A stretch of 64,000 bases of DNA from Scytalidium lignicola. Taxonomy: Eukaryota > Ascomycota > Leotiomycetes. The notes under the pieces were generated by a model that worked only from the letters and a program-made list of their open reading frames with translations, was not told where the DNA came from and did no database searches. A program made the position numbers and the translations under genes. The stretch is from NCBI GenBank assembly GCA_002812745.2, contig NCSJ02000004.1:186001-250000 (forward strand), in the 5' to 3' direction. Numbering within the stretch: the first letter of the stretch is position 1; every line of letters starts with the position of its first letter. Positions 5,296-27,916 of the stretch are shown here, piece after piece.

Positions 5296-5990
5296 TAAAT
5301 ATAAAAGTGATAGATCATTAATCATGACACTTTGCGATCATATAGAGGTATACTACGTGCTCAATAAATTAATAAGATCATGCATAATGGATAGAAAAAA
5401 AGCAAGTAGACTATTCCATTCCTATCTCATAGATTCATTTTGATTGCATCAGAATTCAGTATTTACAGGCCTCGCCTCCTGAACCAGCTCAAGCCNAAAA
5501 AAGAAGACAACTATACACAAATAAAAGGGGGGTTTTTTGCTCATATCCATCACCAACACAAAAAGAAAATTAAGAAGAAAATAAAACGCAGCATGGAACC
5601 AAGCAAAAAAGAAAGAGCAATCAATCGCATGACCCAAAAACCGTTGTCTCCAAGATCTGATACCCCCCAGCCATATATCCAAAGAAAAACCAAAACCCAA
5701 GTACTNAAAAAAGTGTTACACTGGTATCTCACAACGACCAAGCTCGGCGGAGCATAGAATTGAAACGTATAAATAGAAAAGTTAAACTAGATGATGTGGC
5801 TTTCCAACGCCTGACGTAAATGCTTTCGTTAAGGAGGATCGAGTTCGTCCAGCCAGTCCTGTATCTCAGATCATAGTTACCCGAGTCACACAGGGAATAT
5901 GGTGAAAAAATTTAGCTGTTTAGCTACAGGTGTTGGAAATATCTCCTCTGCCTGAGGAGTTTGGATTCTATATTCACTTAGGGGATTCTC
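5296..5990. other. Convergent 3' intergenic region
   Basis: Spacer between the 3' ends of the dehydrogenase (+) and the homeobox gene (-). It is A-rich and low in complexity, with two single N placeholders (5496, 5706), both followed by six A's. I see no gene; it probably holds both 3' UTRs. Confidence 0.6.
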
Positions 5991-18474: not shown

Positions 18475-21400
18475 TTATTGTTCCTCAGCTTCAAATCCTT
18501 CTTTGATCTCCTCCTCTACGTCCTCTTCCGAGTAATATGCAGCCTCTACTTCAACCTGATCTTCCATTACCCCATCATCCTGAGCCGGGAGAGTTGCATC
18601 TGGAGGCAATCCCATTTCTGCCTTCAGCTGCATCACTTTTGCGTTTGTCATCTCATACACATACTGACCCAAGTGTTCAACGCCTTCCATCTGAGTTTCG
18701 CCTGTTATAGGTTTGCTTTCTTCTTCGGCTAGAATCCTTCTGCTGGGCCAGAGCTCCCCTGTAACAAGCATAAGCTTATCTGGCCTCTGTAGCAGAATAT
18801 CAAAGGCTTGGCGAAGCTCCAAGCACGATTCAAATACTTCTCGTCGACCAAGGATATACAAACCAAGTCTGGCACGTGAGAGCGCTACGGTAAGGCGCCG
18901 AATGTCACGAAGGTAGCCGACTCTGGAGGTACGAGTTAGTGAAAGAATAATATCTAAATCACGTTAGCTAGACCATAGATACACAACAGTTTCTTAAAAC
19001 ACGTACAATCATTTTGCTCGCCCTGGTATTTGTCCACCGTAGTGATGATTTTAGGAAGACCAAAAAGAGGATTCTTGGCACATCTATGGGCTAAAACATC
19101 TTTGATGAGAGCACGCTGTCCAGCATATGTTGTTATAATGCTGATTTTGGAAGCTGGGTATCCTAGAAGACGCATGTATTGGTAAATTGCAACCGAATAT
19201 TCTGCTTCCCCTAGATTCTGAATGAAATGAGGTGTAGGCTCTGATTCTCCTCTGCCTTTGTAATCTGGAACTTGGATGAACTGGAAGTCATACTTGAATC
19301 CTGCGTTTGCGGTTTGAAATTCAGGCGACGTATACACAAGAGGAAGATTACCCAGATTGCGATACCTCCATTGGTAGAGGGAGGCAATAGACGGACGTGC
19401 TCGACCTTGTTGGTCGAGATTGATTGAAGGAACACCCAGACGGATAAGTCGGGCAAAGAGTGATTGTTCTAGATTTGCATACTGGCGGAATGCAAGGTTC
19501 TGAATGACTGGCGAGTTTTGGAAATGATCGCCACAAAGGACTACCCTTTGCAATGACGTTTCTCTATTCTTCAAATTTTGCATCGCAAGGGGTATGAAAT
19601 TTTCAATCTCTGTAATCTGTGCCGCTTCTTCCATGATAACATTGTCGTAATGAAACCCTAAAGAAGCTATCTCCCGCCTTCTCATTGCTGCGTGGGTGGA
19701 TGTCATAGCAATTATCCGAGCTTCATTTGTGAGAAGATAGTTCGCTTTATCACGGTCTCGCCGAAGTATTTCAAAAGGCCTGACATCTTCAAGTTCAATA
19801 AAAATCTTCGAGATATGGTGATAGCAACCATTGGCTATATCCAACACAGCCTCCTTGTCAGTATCGAGAGGGAAAAGAGGTTGGGGAGCATTGGAAAAGT
19901 AGTAATGGAACGGAAATGCTTGTACAATTGCTTCGGCAGTAGCCTCCGGCAATTTTGCAACCTCTTGAAACCTGGTCCATGCTGGTTCCACATACACTGA
20001 ATTGAAATATCCTGCAGTCTCCGCTGAACTACCATGGGCTCCAGGAGCATCAAAATTAGCAGCGAGGCGGTCAACCTCCTTCAGATATAGGTCTCTATTC
20101 TCAAGGAATGATTCAACACGACCATGCTTGCTAAAGCTGGCCTCCGTGTCTAAATCTTCCTCGCCATGACCAAGCCGTAGTAGATGACGCTCATCAATAT
20201 CTAACGCAACTATTTTCTGAAATAGTTGGTTAAGGGCTTGATTGCTATGAGCAATGAGTAGAGTCCGTTGATTTGGAAAATTGTGGTACAGATTATTAAT
20301 GATCTGGGTTGCAACATCAGTCTTTCCTGTTCCTGGAGGTCCAACAATGATGGTCAATCCCGGCTGTGTTCCCGAAATAATTGCCTCAATTTGGGCAGGA
20401 GTAAATCGAATAGTGTTAAGCTTTGGGGCGTCTAGTGGATAAGGACCCGTATTTGGAGGCTTGTAAGTAGAGACTCGAACTTGTTCTGGCTGTGGCGTAG
20501 GTTCAGCATCACGTCGTCTCTTCTTGGACGGTTTAACTAGTGCCGGCTCAGCCGGTATCTTCTTAAACTCGAGGATATATGGCGGTCCAAAACTGCCACC
20601 AACATCATCGCCAGGCTCTACTGTTTTCCCCGGCAGACTTTCACTTAAATGCTGCCAATTAAGGAACGTATCCCTATAATCGACCTTCTGGATTTGATTT
20701 GGTAGATGGGTATAGGCTGCTCCAGCTGGGTCACCATACCCTAGAAAGACTTCATGGAGCCACGGAGCCAATGGCACATTAGACAATGTCAGACTCTGAA
20801 TAGAATCTAAAACGGGTTTGAAGTTATTTTCTCTCCCTTTCCTCCGCATGATGAGATTGACATTTTCATAAATGTTCGGTCTCCCGCTATCCACCTGCGC
20901 CATATCCTGCTTATACATTGCAGCATCCAATTTCACTTGAAGCCTTCGTGAACGTGGACGGGCTCCTTGGGTGTTTGTCAAATAATTTGGGTCTCTTAGC
21001 GACCTGCCCTTGTCGTCCAGTATTTGGATGACCTCAGCAGCTCGCAGATACCTTAATCCCAATTTCTGAGCATAAGGAATAGTCGATGCTCCATTTGTTG
21101 TTAGTTTGGAGGGATCAACAGCCTGGATAGCTAGTAAGAAGATGACATCATCTGGTCTTAGAGCGTCCCATTCTCTGCGGATATTGTCTGCTAGCTTACT
21201 AACATCAAGTGCTATTTCGGCTTTGACAACAGCAGGTTTATCGTCTCCGACCAGTGGTGGTGCAGCCTCTAAGATGCTAGAATTTGTCAGCTACATTTGA
21301 GGAACTTGATGGGTGAGACTTACGCTGGCTTTGTGATTGGCAACGCCATCTTTGAAAAGCCTTCGAAATGTACCGCATCACCGCGACCAGGAGCCGGTCG

Positions 21401-23036
21401 TAAACGTTTTATTGTATCCTCTACATCCTTCCGGATCTCAAAGAATGATTCGCATCTATGGAGGGTGAACGACCTCCATAGGAAATCTCCAACAGTGAGA
21501 TACTGTAGATTCAGTTTGGGGATCGCGAGTGGCTGTGACCCATTATAATCGTCACTCCGAAGGAGTGATCGCTCGAATAAGGTATGTTCAGTTGGCAAGA
21601 TACTTAGTTCACGTGCGGTTTCTTGGAAGGTCTTCCGTCTCTCATAACTTGACAATAATATCTCAGTGAGAAACTGACGATCAGTAACAACCTTGGTAGA
21701 TGATGGGTAAGATGTCCGGAAATCGAGCAAGTCACAGAGCTTAGTAATTTCAGCGTCTGTGAGGGCCTCGAGATGAGTCTCCAGCTCCGATCGCTTGTCA
21801 ATAGACGCATAGTTTGATAAAGCCAGAATCGTTAACTTATCCTTGAAATGCTTGAGGGCAACTCTTTGCAACGTAGCTAGCCTCGCACAATGACGATCAT
21901 ACGCTTCTGTCGTGCTATGCTGGATTCCAGAGTGGTCGTCAATCGAAAAATAAGTGTAATGGCTGAGCAAGGTATAGAGATCTCGCAACAGAATATTTTC
22001 TTCATCATTAAAGGCTGGTGACATTCGAATTGCTGGGAGAACATTTAGGTCATTTAGGATAGTGTTGACATATCTTCTTGTTGGCAATTGACTTTGAAGG
22101 TCTGAAAGGAATTCAATAAATCGTTCACAATATAAAACGNTTTTCTAAGGGGAAAAGGATTAGCAAAGATACGGCCCATGTTGCCAAAGCACGCACCATA
22201 TTTGATTTGGTCGTCATAAAGCTGGTTAAAAAAATCAAGTATCAATGTAAAGAGCCAAGCTCGCTCGATGCGAAGTCGGGGTTTTGTCGCTTCATCAGCA
22301 GCATCATATCTCTTCGCTGCTGCTCGCCACGCTTTTCTTATTTGCACTGTCTGGTCAAGTTTCTGCTCCCGCTTCTTCTCTGAAGATATATTGTGCCATA
22401 TCGATATTGATACCAAAGGCGCGCATTCCTTCCTGACAATGCCACTATCTAAAGACTGAAAGGCACTTATGATAAAGCTTATCAAATTTGTTCTAATTGT
22501 TGCCGAAAGCGTGCTATCCAAGGTCATGGAGAGTATTCGTCGAAAGAGACCGGAGAAGTCTGACGGATTGTCGGAAAATATGTCTCGTGCTTATTAGCTT
22601 TCATGTAGATATATTGCCGATCCATTACTTACCCCATGTAGCCAAATGCTCGTGTGTCTTGACATTCACTATGAGCGCAATGAGGAGAACATGAAAATTG
22701 GAGGCATCATCAGAATATCCCGGCCACAAGTAACTGACAATGTCCGTTAGCATATGGCCGTTTTGAAGAGAATAAAACATACTTTTCCAAGATCTGCAAA
22801 TTCTCTAGAATAAGCAGGGATCTAAAAGCAAAGTCTTCCTTTTCTAAAATATCCCAAATCTCATTTTTCAAGACGTCTGGCCGCACCTTAACCTTGGTGG
22901 GCTTTTTCGAACTCTTATGCCAAAGCTTTTTCGCAAGTTGTGCAAAGGCACTCCCACCTTGCAAATCCTCAATAGTCGGTCTCCCATCATCTGAAACATG
23001 GCGAGAGTCTTCTTTAACCCTTGCTCCTGGTGCCAT
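18475..23036 (-). CDS. AQR: Intron-binding protein Aquarius (Cwf11), spliceosomal SF1 RNA helicase
   Basis: Superfamily-1 RNA helicase of the spliceosome that contacts the intron upstream of the branch point. Six exons: 23036-22783, 22733-22633, 22589-22197, 22144-21324, 21276-19007 and 18953-18475, giving about 1438 residues (human protein about 1485). The N-terminal armadillo-like region contains YLWPGYSDDAS, created by splicing exons 1 and 2. The Walker A motif GPPGTGKT lies near residue 833, with QALNQLFQKI after it; the DEAA-type Walker B is seen as MEEAAQI. C-terminal motifs TVDKYQGEQND and RRLTVALSRARLGLYILG are in place, the first spanning an intron. An N at 22140 sits four bases inside exon 4. 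Dropping it and using the GTGCGT...CCCCTTAG intron (22196-22145) gives KYENVLYCERFIEFLSDLQS, continuous into LPTRRYVN. The acidic C-terminal tail is normal for fungal members. It shares a short promoter with THOC1. Confidence 0.93.
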
Positions 23037-23324
23037 TATGCTGTCTGGAATGAGGTAATAATGGGGCGCTCGGAGTGCGCGTGCTCCAAAGATGATTTCT
23101 CTATCACAACAGCGCGTTTAGCGTTTAGTAAACGCAACGCGAGATGCATAAGTGGGACTAAATTAGATCCCGCCGCTAGTAGAAACCTCCCTGTAAATGA
23201 GCTTCAAATGTCGCGAGGCTAATATTCCCGACATTCATGGCCAACATCTTCCATTCCGCCTCAACACTGCCCTCGGCCGCCTAACTCTGTGCAGAAATAC
23301 TTCCTACTGCTTTCAAATTGCAGC
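23037..23324. promoter_or_regulatory. Bidirectional AQR/THOC1 promoter with nested palindrome
   Basis: 288-bp spacer between two divergent start codons. It contains a nested inverted repeat at 23113-23141: outer arms CGCGTT/AACGCG and inner arms GCGTTTA/TAAACGC around a single G, with a 2-nt bulge (TA) on one side. The two genes act in splicing and mRNA export, so one element could serve both; that is an inference. Confidence 0.5.
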
Positions 23325-26158
23325 ATGGCCGGCCATCATGTTCAAGCGGTGGATGCGTTTGGCCAGCTTCTAGTTGAGATGTTGGCAACTGCGGAGCAAG
23401 TCAAGGAAAAGACCGCAGTCGAACATCCTTTGAACAAGTCAGATCTGGGCAAGCTATTTGATAAAGTAGACATAATGTTTACTTCGGCATCGACTCCAGA
23501 TGTCAAGAAACGCAGTCAGTACGCGATCATCGAGACGGCGGTTTTTGACGCGTTTAATGGTTTACTGGTAAGTCCTGTCTAATTTCTGGTAGATCTATCT
23601 GCAACTAGTTAACACCTATATAGGCAACAACTGCTATTAATACGGAGTCTTTCAATAGAGTATGGAATCTTCTGGACATTATATCAATACTTTCCGATGA
23701 TGAACAATGTGATCCGGCTCTCTTATTTTGGCTTATCGAAGAGCTTTTGGACAGTCAAACTATCGCTGGTTGCCGAAAGATATTTGACTATCTTGAGTCA
23801 CGCAGGGAAAGAATTACAGCAAAACATTTCTCGCAGAAAAATTTGATTATTTTGAGAAGCTGTAACGAGCTCTTGCGGCGATTGTCACGAGCAGAAGACA
23901 CCGCTTTTTGTGGTCGGGTATTTATTTTCATGTTTCAGAGCTTTCCGTTAGGTGATAAAAGCTCGGTCAATTTGCGTGGCGAGTATCATGTTGAGAATGT
24001 TACCACGTTCGATGTGCCTTCACCTGAAGAATTAAGTACAGAGAAAATGGTTGAGGACATAGACACAGACATGGACTTAAAGCCTGCTGTCAATGATGTC
24101 GGCAGTTCTTCAAAATTGGCTGGGGAACGAGGCATTCCGTCAAAGCTCGTAACTTTCTCCAATCCGGGTGCGCCTAAGGATTTTGACAAGTTGTACCCTA
24201 CTTTCTGGTCACTACAAGAGAGCTTCAGCCAACCCAAAAAGCTATTCGATAAACAGCGATTAGCAAGTTTCAAGAGCGGTCTAGAGGCTACTATGGCCGT
24301 CTTCATGTCTGTCCAAAATGACAGTAATGGACGCCCGACCAGAGTCGCAGATGAGAACAAAAGAGGGACAAAGCGAAAAAGAGGCCACGGTGATGATGAC
24401 CTTGCTAATTCATTTAATCCAAAATATCTGACTAGTAGAGACTTGTTTGAGCTAGAGGTGGGTAGTCTCCTAATAAATTCATATATTCTCATAGCTGATT
24501 ACTAAAAGATCAGCGATTTATCTTTCCGAAGACACATTCTTGTGCAGGTACTGGTTCTGATGGATTTTTTACTTTCACTAAGCACAAAAGCAAAAGAAAA
24601 GCTGGCAAAGGCTACCTTGCCAGATAATCCTAATAAGTCCGTCATTTATGCCGATCAAACCTTTGGTGAAGAGGACGTAAGTATATCCCCACATATGAGG
24701 AGTTTTGCCTATATAAGCTAACACTGCTTCAGACGAAGTGGGCTATCGAAATGAAAGAAACAATAGCAGAATATCTTAAACAAGGATATGAGGGTCCCTA
24801 TTTCTACCGTATGGTCGAGACAGTCCTTTCTCGTGATAAGAACTGGGTTCGTTGGAAAATCGAGAACTGCCCCACAATATCTAAACCACCAATTACGCCG
24901 GAAGAGTATATAGCGGCAAAGTTATCAGCCCGCAAAACCACTACCAATAAGAGATTACGCGCACAACCATTGGGCTCACTTGACCTAAAATTTCTCTCGG
25001 AAGAGGAAGGCAATCGCGGATTGGAAAGGTTAAAAGATCCATCGAGATATCAAATTCCCGCAATCAAGAGTTTTAAAAGCGGGATGGAGTTGGATGATAT
25101 GGATATTGATATGGCCAAGGATGAAGAGTTNAAAAAATGCTGCGATAGAAGCGAAAGCAAGCAAGAGCTGGAGAGCATTACGTATCGCCACTGCTACCAA
25201 ACTTGTCACGTTTGATAAAATCGAGCGCTACGATAAGATCGACAGCGTCTTTATAGATGAAGTCAAACCAGAGGAGCCCGTCGGGAATGCTGACGATGAA
25301 TCCACAGATGCTGACGATACTATTTTCCCCAAAGATAGGCGCCCGATAGTTATATCAGGCCCTGGCGGCGTAGGAAAGGGAACCATGATCAAATTGCTCA
25401 ATGAGAAGCATCCTAAAGTATTTAGCAAAAATATTTCTCATACAACACGTACTCCACGAGAAGGCGAGGTACATCGCCAGGATTACTTTTTTGTTGGCCA
25501 AGCAGATTTTGATATATTGCGAGATGGAGACGAGTTCCTAGAGTACAATAATTTCAATGGGAATGATTATGGAACAAGTCGAAAAGTTGTTGAAAGTATC
25601 ATCGCCTCTGGGAAGATACCAATTATGGAGATGGAACTCAACGTAAGTTTATGTAACATATCTAAAATTAGCGCTTTCTAACCTGAATACTAGGGTATTA
25701 AACAACTCAAAGATAAAGGGTTCGCAGCCCGGTTTATTTTCTTAGAACCACCAGATCTTTCTGAACTGGAACGTCGAATGCGGGAGGAACGTGGTACGGA
25801 TTCGGAAGAACTTATACAACAGCGACTCGGTATCGCTAAGAGAGAATTGGAAGAGTCAAAGGTAGAGGGGACCTATGACAAGGTTATAGTCAACGACCAC
25901 CTTCAACGATCTTATAACGATCTTGAGAACTACATTTTTAATCAAGGAAATACTTCCGAGGTTCCTAAAGAATATGGCGAGCCAACCACCGAAACTTCCA
26001 TAGAGTCTTCCCTTAGAGCAGATAGCATCTTTGCAGCAGGAGGTCTGAAGGACGAACCACCTGAATCGCTAGATACAGCCAATTCTCAGATGGAAGTAGA
26101 TACTGCAGGAACTATGGAAGTGAGTAGGGATGCCATGGAGACTGAGCCAAGCCCATAA
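23325..26158 (+). CDS. THOC1: THOC1 (Hpr1-type THO subunit) fused to a guanylate kinase domain
   Basis: Exons: 23325-23567, 23624-24457, 24509-24676, 24733-25642 and 25694-26158, giving 872 residues once the N at 25131 is removed (GAG TTA AAA AAT). The start is the ATG at 23325 (MAGHHVQAVDAFGQLL). Residues 1 to about 590 are THOC1, the THO/TREX subunit for transcription-coupled mRNP export: the hallmark EDTAFCGRVFIFMFQSFPLG, then RGEYHVENVTTFD, EYLKQGYEGPYFYRMVE and the C-terminal SKSWRALRIA. After a 30-residue acidic linker comes a full guanylate-kinase fold (about 615-805): P-loop SGPGGVGKGT, GMP-binding SHTTRTPREGEV, EFLEYNNFNGNDYGT, FLEPPDLSELERR, lid RGTDSEELIQQRL, and YDKVIVND. A 70-residue acidic tail follows. 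Key kinase residues look intact; GKGT replaces the yeast-type GKST, as in many bacterial enzymes. The family calls are firm. That both domains are on one protein rests on the frame across the N. Confidence 0.88.
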
Positions 26159-27014
26159 AGATTGTGGAATTGAAGCAGCCTTGACAATGTATTATAGTAT
26201 TGGGACATCAATCAGCAAACTAAACCAGTGATAGAAAACAAAAATATCTATCGTCGCTCAAAATAACAAGTCTTGACGCTTCACCTTGTAAAAAGTGTCA
26301 AAGATGACATAGCAGGAAAATGTTCTATCGCTCCTAGTTGCCTCGTAGTAGCTCTCAAGATCTAGTGGTTAATACGCTTTCTCGGAGTATTTTAGTACGA
26401 TTTAAACTAGTCATACCGCTTTATGAGATTTTCTCCTGCAAGAGCCGTTCGTTTCTTTCAATCCCAAAAATTGAAAGTGCTTAAAAATATTATCGGAGGA
26501 CATAATACAAAGAAATTAAAATAAAATAAATATGTCATTATAACTAGTGTGATTGGCTACTAAAAGTGTACAGCAATAACTGACCTACAGACACCAGAAG
26601 AAACTTTATCAGGTATTTCTCACGATGCCCATCTGCCTTATTAATAGGATATTAAATTTGTTGTGATATCCTAGTTGCCACCTTAGGCACCACGTTTCAC
26701 CTATTACACGTGACTTCCCTTTCTAGTAGTTAGCTTCACTTGTACGTACGTAGCTACACTACAACACCACAATATATTTGAGTAACCCCGATTACGCAAC
26801 CTCTTGCTGTGCTTAATTCAACAAAATTACCCCATTCTTACAGTTTGGATAGGGCAGAGGAACAAGCGAGACGATGACAACCTTAAATTGATAAACCGAT
26901 TGTAGGACCCCGTTGGATGGATGATAAGGAAACAATTCATATAACTCATGTTGCAATTTCGAGTCATCTTTTAACCGTCGATCTCTGCTATTTGTTGTAG
27001 ATATTCCTTTCAAA
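26159..27014. other. AT-rich intergenic region
   Basis: Between the THOC1-GMPK stop and the secreted deaminase ATG. AT-rich; no ORF with recognisable content. It should contain the THOC1 3' UTR and the deaminase promoter. Confidence 0.5.
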
Positions 27015-27916
27015 ATGAATTTCCTTCCCTATCCAGCCTCTCTCTCTAGCATTTTCCTCCTTATACTCATCCACCTTACGAGAGCTGATCTACATCATGT
27101 AATTCAGCATGATATTAATTCTCCTGCTACGGATGATCTATCATCTGACCCAGTGCCATACAGCACACGAGCTTATTGGATGAGAATGGCAAACCAAGCT
27201 TTATCAGAGCTCTCTTCGCCATGCCCATTCCAAGCTTTTGGTACAGTTATAGTTAACCATACGGATACTAGTTCAGATCCCAAAGGGAAACTCGTATGTA
27301 TAGGGGTTAATTCAATGGCTACAACCGGAGATCCCACGATGCATGGTATAGAATAATTCGTTAAGTATATATGAAAGTATCTTGATACTAAATACTGTGG
27401 ATAGGGGAAATTGCTGCAATCACAAATTGTTCAAAAGTCCTCACCGACTCCACTGGTCCATACAAACTCAGTCCGTCCGAGGCCATGAAAGCTTATTCTA
27501 AATTGAGCATTTATACAAATGGGGAGAGCTGCCCAATGGTATTGCGAACCAGTCTCATTATCCTCTGAAGTGTTTATGAGCAGTTCTAACAGCTATCATA
27601 GTGTGCATCCGCAATTCGCTGGGCTGGTTTTGCCGAGTATATCTACGGAACAAGCATTGCCACTTTAACAGCTAAGGGCTTTACACAGATCCATATTTCA
27701 TCAACAGATATATTTCACGAGACTAGTGATTTGCCAGGCACTACAAGACTGGTTGGTGGGATCCTGGCAAATGAGACCGATGTGTATTTTGGCTGGCAGT
27801 ATCACAGAGACGCCAGATGCCCGGATGGTTGTGTAAGAAGCAAAGGAGAGGAGAGCTGTCAGCCACTGGAAAGTCCTGAAATCCAAAAAAGTGGCAAGAA
27901 TATGAAAGAACTTTGA
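27015..27916 (+). CDS. Predicted secreted zinc deaminase (CMP/dCMP or TadA/guanine deaminase-like)
   Basis: Zinc-dependent deaminase of the cytidine/deoxycytidylate deaminase superfamily. Exons 27015-27345, 27405-27538 and 27602-27916, giving 259 residues. The zinc site is visible only after splicing: His110-Gly-Glu112 forms at exon junction 1 (MHG|EIAAI), and Cys153-Pro-Met-Cys156 spans junction 2 (NGESCPM|CASAIRWAGF). The HxE plus PMC pattern resembles TadA and guanine deaminase more than free cytidine deaminases. The N-terminus is a good signal peptide (hydrophobic SIFLLILIHL, likely cleavage after LTRA near residue 24). There is a potential N-glycosylation site (VNHT) and the C-terminus is Cys-rich (ARCPDGCV), all suggesting export through the ER. 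Superfamily members are usually intracellular, so location is the odd point. Substrate cannot be read from sequence; a base, nucleoside or nucleotide outside the cell is a guess. Confidence 0.8.

Follow-up and report, generated by a model that had tools for sequence, protein, structure and literature searches.

Does the THO subunit of this mould really end in a guanylate kinase, and if so, what kind of protein is it? The question is raised by a stretch of 64,000 nucleotides from Scytalidium lignicola (GenBank assembly GCA_002812745.2, contig NCSJ02000004.1, positions 186,001 to 250,000), here called the window, in which a gene at 23325-26158 on the + strand encodes a THOC1 domain followed by a guanylate kinase domain. 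We consider it likely that this gene is the only THOC1 of the fungus, an Hpr1-type THO subunit, and that a copy of GUK1 was joined to its C-terminus as a nucleotide-competent accessory module. The basis of this reading is established at the level of sequence: one frame contains both domains, the genome holds a single efThoc1 gene and a separate GUK1, the fused kinases form one clade, and nine features of the kinase are present.

The gene, its two domains and related genes

The gene consists of five exons separated by GT..AG introns, and its product has 872 residues. The frame starts with the ATG at 23325 and ends with the stop codon at 26156-26158. Exon 1 (23325-23567), with the ATG and a GTAAGT donor, encodes the N-terminus of THOC1 (residues 1-81), which continues through exon 2 (23624-24457, residues 82-359) and exon 3 (24509-24676, residues 360-415). 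In exon 4 (24733-25642, residues 416-718), THOC1 ends, an acidic linker follows and the guanylate kinase domain begins, its first half being encoded here; exon 5 (25694-26158, residues 719-872 and the stop) holds the second half and an acidic tail; these and all features of the gene named below lie on the + strand.

A Pfam scan of the window protein revealed two families only. The efThoc1 match (PF11957; E value 3.3e-155) starts at residue 94 in exon 2 and extends to residue 596 (23660-25276 including introns), with 518 bits against a cut-off of 27 and positions 1-471 of the 490 in the profile covered. The Guanylate_kin match (PF00625; E value 1.2e-44) comprises residues 617-801 (25337-25942 including one intron), with 152.6 bits against a cut-off of 25.2 and profile positions 2-181 of 182. 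A preliminary description of the window had read THOC1, guanylate kinase and acidic tail from one spliced frame, and the start, the stop, the introns and both Pfam domains confirm this. It had let THOC1 end at SKSWRALRIA, which is wrong, as the efThoc1 match runs 29 residues further.

Human THOC1 has a death domain after its core. Most of the core of human THOC1/Hpr1 is homologous to the window protein, which carries the guanylate kinase where the human protein has the death domain. The homology was found with human THOC1 in solved THO/TREX structures (chains 7znk_A and 7apk_A; E value 6e-57, profile 81-577). Yeast Guk1, a stand-alone metabolic enzyme, shares the P-loop, the guanosine monophosphate (GMP) site and the lid with the window domain, and also its fold, as judged from the structure model of a relative; the two sequences are 43% identical over 183 positions (1gky). 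The P-loop GPGGVGKGT (25358-25384, residues 624-632) aligns with yeast residues 9-17, the GMP-binding loop SHTTRTPR (25436-25459, residues 650-657) contains the equivalents of yeast S35, R39 and R42, and the lid (25778-25828) has R751 and R762 at yeast R136 and R147. The acidic tail (25943-26155, residues 802-872) is poorly conserved: the nearest relative, from Xylogone sp. (P0001), is 85% identical to the window protein in the kinase domain and 42% in the tail.

The two parts meet within exon 4, where the open frame extends over 215 codons without a stop. No in-frame ATG is present in the window gene between methionine 542 and methionine 633, the latter just past the P-loop, so that this frame cannot yield a separate kinase that starts at an ATG and includes the P-loop. 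A methionine at the aligned positions 552-623 is likewise missing from 68 of 106 named fusions, window included, and is present in the other 38. Searching for proteins that combine THOC1 with Guanylate_kin, as had been suggested at the outset, we found both Pfam domains in 113 of 120 listed homologues; these are the proteins nearest to the window (the best 120 of 1132), and their Sordariomycete sample is not random. The seven rows lacking the kinase are five Sclerotiniaceae and two Lachnellula. Since 113 homologues carry both domains, the join is not due to chance; it is real, old and common to many moulds, and a fusion confined to this strain was rejected for the same reason.

When the 46.85 Mb genome was searched, the efThoc1 family matched the window gene only, piece by piece, and this gene is most likely the only THOC1 found in the fungus. 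The kinase family matched three places: a GUK1 on C325, the window gene and a decayed fragment on C260. The question of a separate GUK1 is answered by the stand-alone gene on C325 (L001, about 1380-2109), which retains all nine catalytic features scored below. An upstream in-frame ATG would add the basic N-terminal stretch MRFSHHLRSRF to this GUK1, possibly giving a second, targeted form. The match on C260 (L003, 1465-1764, - strand) was rejected as a working enzyme: it is short, contains stops and is 34% identical to GUK1 over 100 positions.

Active site, constraint and history of the fused kinase

The nine scored features, with positions mapped on 1gky, are the P-loop, yeast S35, R39, R42, Y51, E70 and Y79, and the two lid arginines; the catalytic roles of the single residues are assumed here. 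Residues were counted in 105 of the 120 homologues plus the window, after exclusion of eight rows without an organism name and the seven without kinase. The named fusions all belong to what we take to be Leotiomycetes (32) or Sordariomycetes (74). The window has all nine features, and its P-loop, GMP site and lid are intact as first described. The complete set was found in 17/32 Leotiomycete fusions, window included, and in 0/74 Sordariomycete fusions. Each lid arginine is kept in 22/32 Leotiomycetes and 0/74 Sordariomycetes, the GMP-binding serine S35 in 27/32 and 2/74, R42 in 23/32 and 8/74, the P-loop in 24/32 and 34/74, Y51 in 31/32 and 28/74, and Y79 in 32/32 and 57/74, respectively. R39 (31/32 and 73/74) and E70 (31/32 and 72/74) are common in both classes, and E45 is conserved in 110/110 aligned rows. 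All 15 stand-alone kinases retain S35, R39, R42, Y51, E70, Y79 and both lid arginines, which indicates that the scoring detects intact enzymes where they are expected. These patterns favour nucleotide competence in the window species; for the Sordariomycetes examined they favour a module without catalysis, and the fused kinase there looks like a pseudo-enzyme.

The guanylate kinase fold was found in a structure model of P0001. A comparison with Foldseek and VIA-align returned only guanylate-kinase-type entries among the matches listed, a result that hardly probes the THOC1 part.

Constraint was compared as mean identity over pairs that are 60-85% identical in THOC1 and are not independent of each other. 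The intact Leotiomycetes (72 pairs) showed 64% identity in THOC1 and 64% in the kinase, and the altered Leotiomycetes (86 pairs) 70% and 48%. The corresponding values were 80% and 71% for Xylariales (213 pairs), 77% and 72% for Hypocreales (65 pairs), 74% and 64% for Glomerellales (123 pairs) and 74% and 59% for Sordariales (77 pairs). Gaps made up a fraction of 0.003 of the kinase domain in intact Leotiomycetes and of 0.002-0.004 in Xylariales, Hypocreales and Glomerellales; altered Leotiomycetes had 0.021 and Sordariales 0.113. In the tail the fraction was 0.16-0.53 across the compared groups. We read these values as full constraint where the active site is intact, as a fold retained with catalysis gone in Xylariales, Hypocreales and Glomerellales, and as a domain that appears to be decaying in Sordariales and some Leotiomycetes.

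A tree of kinase domains, built from 38 of the 106 fusions, 13 listed stand-alone proteins, GUK1 and yeast Guk1, placed the 38 fused domains in one clade (100/99) apart from the 15 stand-alone kinases and adjoining fungal GUK1; independent fusions in the two classes are not supported by this single clade. In a THOC1 tree of 105 rows, Leotiomycetes and Sordariomycetes lie together on one side of a branch with support 100. This tree was calculated with the kinase columns excluded and 35 near-duplicates of 140 rows removed, by a quick method with Shimodaira-Hasegawa-like approximate likelihood ratio test (SH-aLRT) support alone. Mapping the presence of the kinase on it requires six changes. The simplest history would be one gain before the split of Leotiomycetes and Sordariomycetes and five losses, in Sclerotiniaceae, powdery mildews, Diaporthales, two Lachnellula and one Ophiocordyceps.

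Eurotiomycetes, lichen-forming fungi and Geoglossomycetes appear with unfused THOC1 proteins in a listing that was aimed at short proteins (about 200-643 residues), contains a kinase domain in 4/120 rows and shows taxa, not frequency. THOC1 of the powdery-mildew and Sclerotinia type has no kinase. The Blumeria protein ends with HPKEKRPTI, exactly where fused relatives have FPKDRRPIV and then the kinase, and because it stops at the entry point of its relatives' kinase, truncation would be the simplest reading. A protein of Erysiphe necator (P0126) is deposited as a putative guanylate kinase, yet has no kinase domain; its name was probably copied from fused relatives.

Single Ns and neighbouring frames

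The frame of the gene is interrupted in the assembly by a single N at 25131, in front of a run of six A, which breaks the frame if it is counted as a base; in our translation the codon holding it is given as X. An N before a homopolymer is a typical sign that the assembler was unsure of the length of the run, and 11 of the 12 single Ns in the window are directly 5' of a run of 4-10 identical bases (further examples among the 12 are at 5496, 9403, 15368 and 57749). THOC1 sequence flanks the N at 25131 on both sides, in two frames, and P0001 has the uninterrupted sequence EESKNAAIEAKASKSWRALRIA across this place. We therefore regard the N as an assembly artefact and reject a true frameshift; the claim that the frame is continuous once the N is deleted is borne out.

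The divergent neighbour adjoining the start of the THOC1-kinase gene encodes aquarius, an intron-binding and likewise mRNA-processing factor (21320-23117, - strand). Its Pfam match is split between two frames, with profile positions 89-214 in one and 223-393 in the other, and the switch falls at an N at 22140. This N stands for one base too few and the N at 25131 for one base too many, so the idea that both break their frames in the same way was rejected. The opposite shifts show that the Ns mark unsure homopolymer lengths in both directions, and a broken frame at any such N of this assembly calls for caution, whichever the sign of the shift. Downstream of the gene, a short open frame with a secreted-protein-like beginning is located at 26928-27356 (+ strand); it gave no Pfam match.

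Proposed function and competing explanations

In the mechanism that we propose, a GUK1 copy would have joined the C-terminus of THOC1 in the common ancestor of Leotiomycetes and Sordariomycetes. The THOC1 part would assemble, as in other eukaryotes, into THO, which packages nascent messenger RNA (mRNA) for export, and the kinase domain would hang on a flexible linker. Judged by its residues, the domain of the window species should still bind GMP and adenosine triphosphate (ATP) and probably phosphorylates GMP. It may thus carry an activity that handles or senses guanine nucleotides to transcribed genes, perhaps converting GMP to guanosine diphosphate (GDP) there. The module would be accessory: about five lineages apparently lost it, and the separate GUK1 would be the main GMP kinase. 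In Sordariomycetes the domain more likely serves for binding, with the old GMP site converted to this purpose.

Several points weigh against this proposal. Two hinge residues beside the GMP-binding serine are not those of yeast (K for F32 and N for S33 in the window), and a change at f33, which we map to F32, lowered the activity of an ancestral guanylate kinase (PMC4718807). The window lid is one residue longer than that of other fusions, and E takes the place of both D99 and D101 of yeast in the window, a residue also common in stand-alone kinases. The structure model has a predicted template modelling score (pTM) of 0.44, so that the placement of the kinase domain on THO is not given by it. 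The count of changes on the THOC1 tree cannot by itself separate gains from losses, and the losses are taken from deposited gene models, which may be split in single species, e.g. Lachnellula or Ophiocordyceps.

The strongest rival, which we regard as possible but doubtful, is that in the window species, too, the domain has become purely a binding module, similar to the guanylate kinase domains of MAGUK proteins, with the old GMP site holding a phosphorylated partner and no catalysis. In PMC4718807, a hinge change at either f33 or s36 made an ancestral guanylate kinase bind protein in the manner of the animal modules. By our mapping f33 corresponds to yeast F32 and s36 to yeast S35; in the window the first is changed and the second, S650, is not. 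F is absent from the F32 position throughout the 106 fusions (K or R in 30/32 Leotiomycetes; K, R or T in 64/74 Sordariomycetes). However, F occurs in only 6 of the 15 stand-alone kinases and K in one of them, so that the hinge change is a tendency, not a rule, and a weak guide to function. A binding role would also fit the Sordariomycete domains, which have lost catalytic residues and yet are nearly gap-free in Xylariales, Hypocreales and Glomerellales (0.002-0.004, compared with 0.16-0.42 in the tail), and a genome with GUK1 needs no second kinase. Against this, the window domain keeps the P-loop, both lid arginines and the serine that we take as the site of the animal-module proline change, and in intact lineages the kinase is as conserved as THOC1.

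The preliminary description had left it in doubt whether the fusion was already known. It is: besides being common to Leotiomycetes and Sordariomycetes, the architecture was published in 2017 for MoGuk2 (MGG_06394; 810 residues, efThoc1 and Guanylate_kin) of the rice blast fungus Magnaporthe oryzae, where the protein was presented as founding a new family of guanylate kinases in fungi (Cai et al. 2017, PMC5732230). The description had also offered two functional ideas, a tie of mRNA export to GMP/GTP metabolism or use of the fold as a protein-binding module; either may be true. The window protein has the order of domains of this Guk2 family, efThoc1 and then Guanylate_kin, with a kinase domain apart from Guk1. 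Like the window, MoGuk2 has an N-terminal efThoc1, a C-terminal guanylate kinase and a separate Guk1 in the genome; it differs in being presented as a kinase of guanosine triphosphate (GTP) synthesis, and the likeness is one of description, not of sequence. No row named Magnaporthe or Pyricularia is among the 120 listed homologues. The Sordariomycete fusions compared here, a set without the MoGuk2 sequence, lack catalytic residues that the window retains. In the main text of PMC5732230 the terms THO, THO complex, Hpr1, TREX and Thoc1 are absent, and efThoc1, which occurs 12 times, is used as the name of a domain to which involvement in transcription elongation and mRNA export is ascribed. Among the open-access matches listed we found no account of the protein as a THOC1 fusion or of its evolution; the architecture is known, and its reading as the cell's THOC1 was not found in print within these matches.

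According to the published interpretation, the protein would serve de novo GTP synthesis as a further metabolic guanylate kinase, its THOC1 domain being incidental. When MoGuk2 was expressed in yeast heterozygous for guk1, GDP rose, and in the MoGuk2 deletion mutant GDP and GTP were decreased and GMP was increased, with partial rescue by GDP and ATP (PMC5732230). The yeast strain, however, retained one copy of GUK1, so that the effect on GDP is indirect. The deletion constructs bear on both sides: MoGuk2 without efThoc1 did not restore conidial shape or virulence, whereas versions without the kinase domain or the P-loop restored them partly, but all three constructs, including the two that lack the kinase domain or the P-loop, failed to restore vegetative growth (PMC5732230). 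In addition, neither lid arginine is kept in any of the 74 Sordariomycete fusions examined. By analogy with the window's genome, where the gene is the sole THOC1, deletion of MoGUK2 would remove a THO subunit as well. The mutant phenotype may be due to the missing THOC1 as much as to the missing kinase; the nucleotide changes in the mutant, the rise of GDP in yeast and the failure of all three constructs in vegetative growth speak against this. We regard a metabolic kinase as unlikely here.

That two adjacent genes were misread as one is highly improbable and was rejected: GUK1-like and THOC1-like parts are each known elsewhere as separate proteins and an N lies near the junction, but the junction falls within one exon without a stop, the same join recurs in 113 of 120 homologues, full-length MoGUK2 was cloned from rice blast as one complementary DNA (PMC5732230), and no in-frame ATG precedes the end of the P-loop, an argument valid for the window and 67 other fusions only, as 38 of 106 have a methionine before the kinase.

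In MAGUK proteins (Dlg, PSD-95, CASK) as in the window protein, a copy of a guanylate kinase is fused to another protein, and catalytic residues have been lost in many relatives of the window. Unlike MAGUK proteins, the window protein retains these residues and the serine at yeast S35 (mapped to s36), without the MAGUK-type change to proline; no PDZ or SH3 domain was detected in its Pfam scan, and the fused domains adjoin fungal GUK1 in a tree calculated without MAGUK domains. There is an even chance, in our judgement, that THOC1 of Leotiomycetes and Sordariomycetes shows for a second time, independently of the animal MAGUKs, how a guanylate kinase became a module without catalysis: one join, an early change of the hinge, a later loss of catalysis in Sordariomycetes, including loss of the serine whose change gave rise to the animal module, and retention of the fold, with the window lineage in the early nucleotide-competent state. 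If this is true, both ends of the transition from enzyme to module can be compared within one protein family, and the MoGuk2 phenotypes are phenotypes of a THO mutant.

Through the fusion, two large classes of moulds have a fold that binds guanine nucleotides on the complex linking transcription with mRNA export. Related lineages have the domain intact, altered or not at all, and so provide a natural series for the change of an enzyme into a binding module. It also suggests that the published work on MoGuk2 merits re-reading, as a probable THO subunit was handled there as a metabolic kinase.
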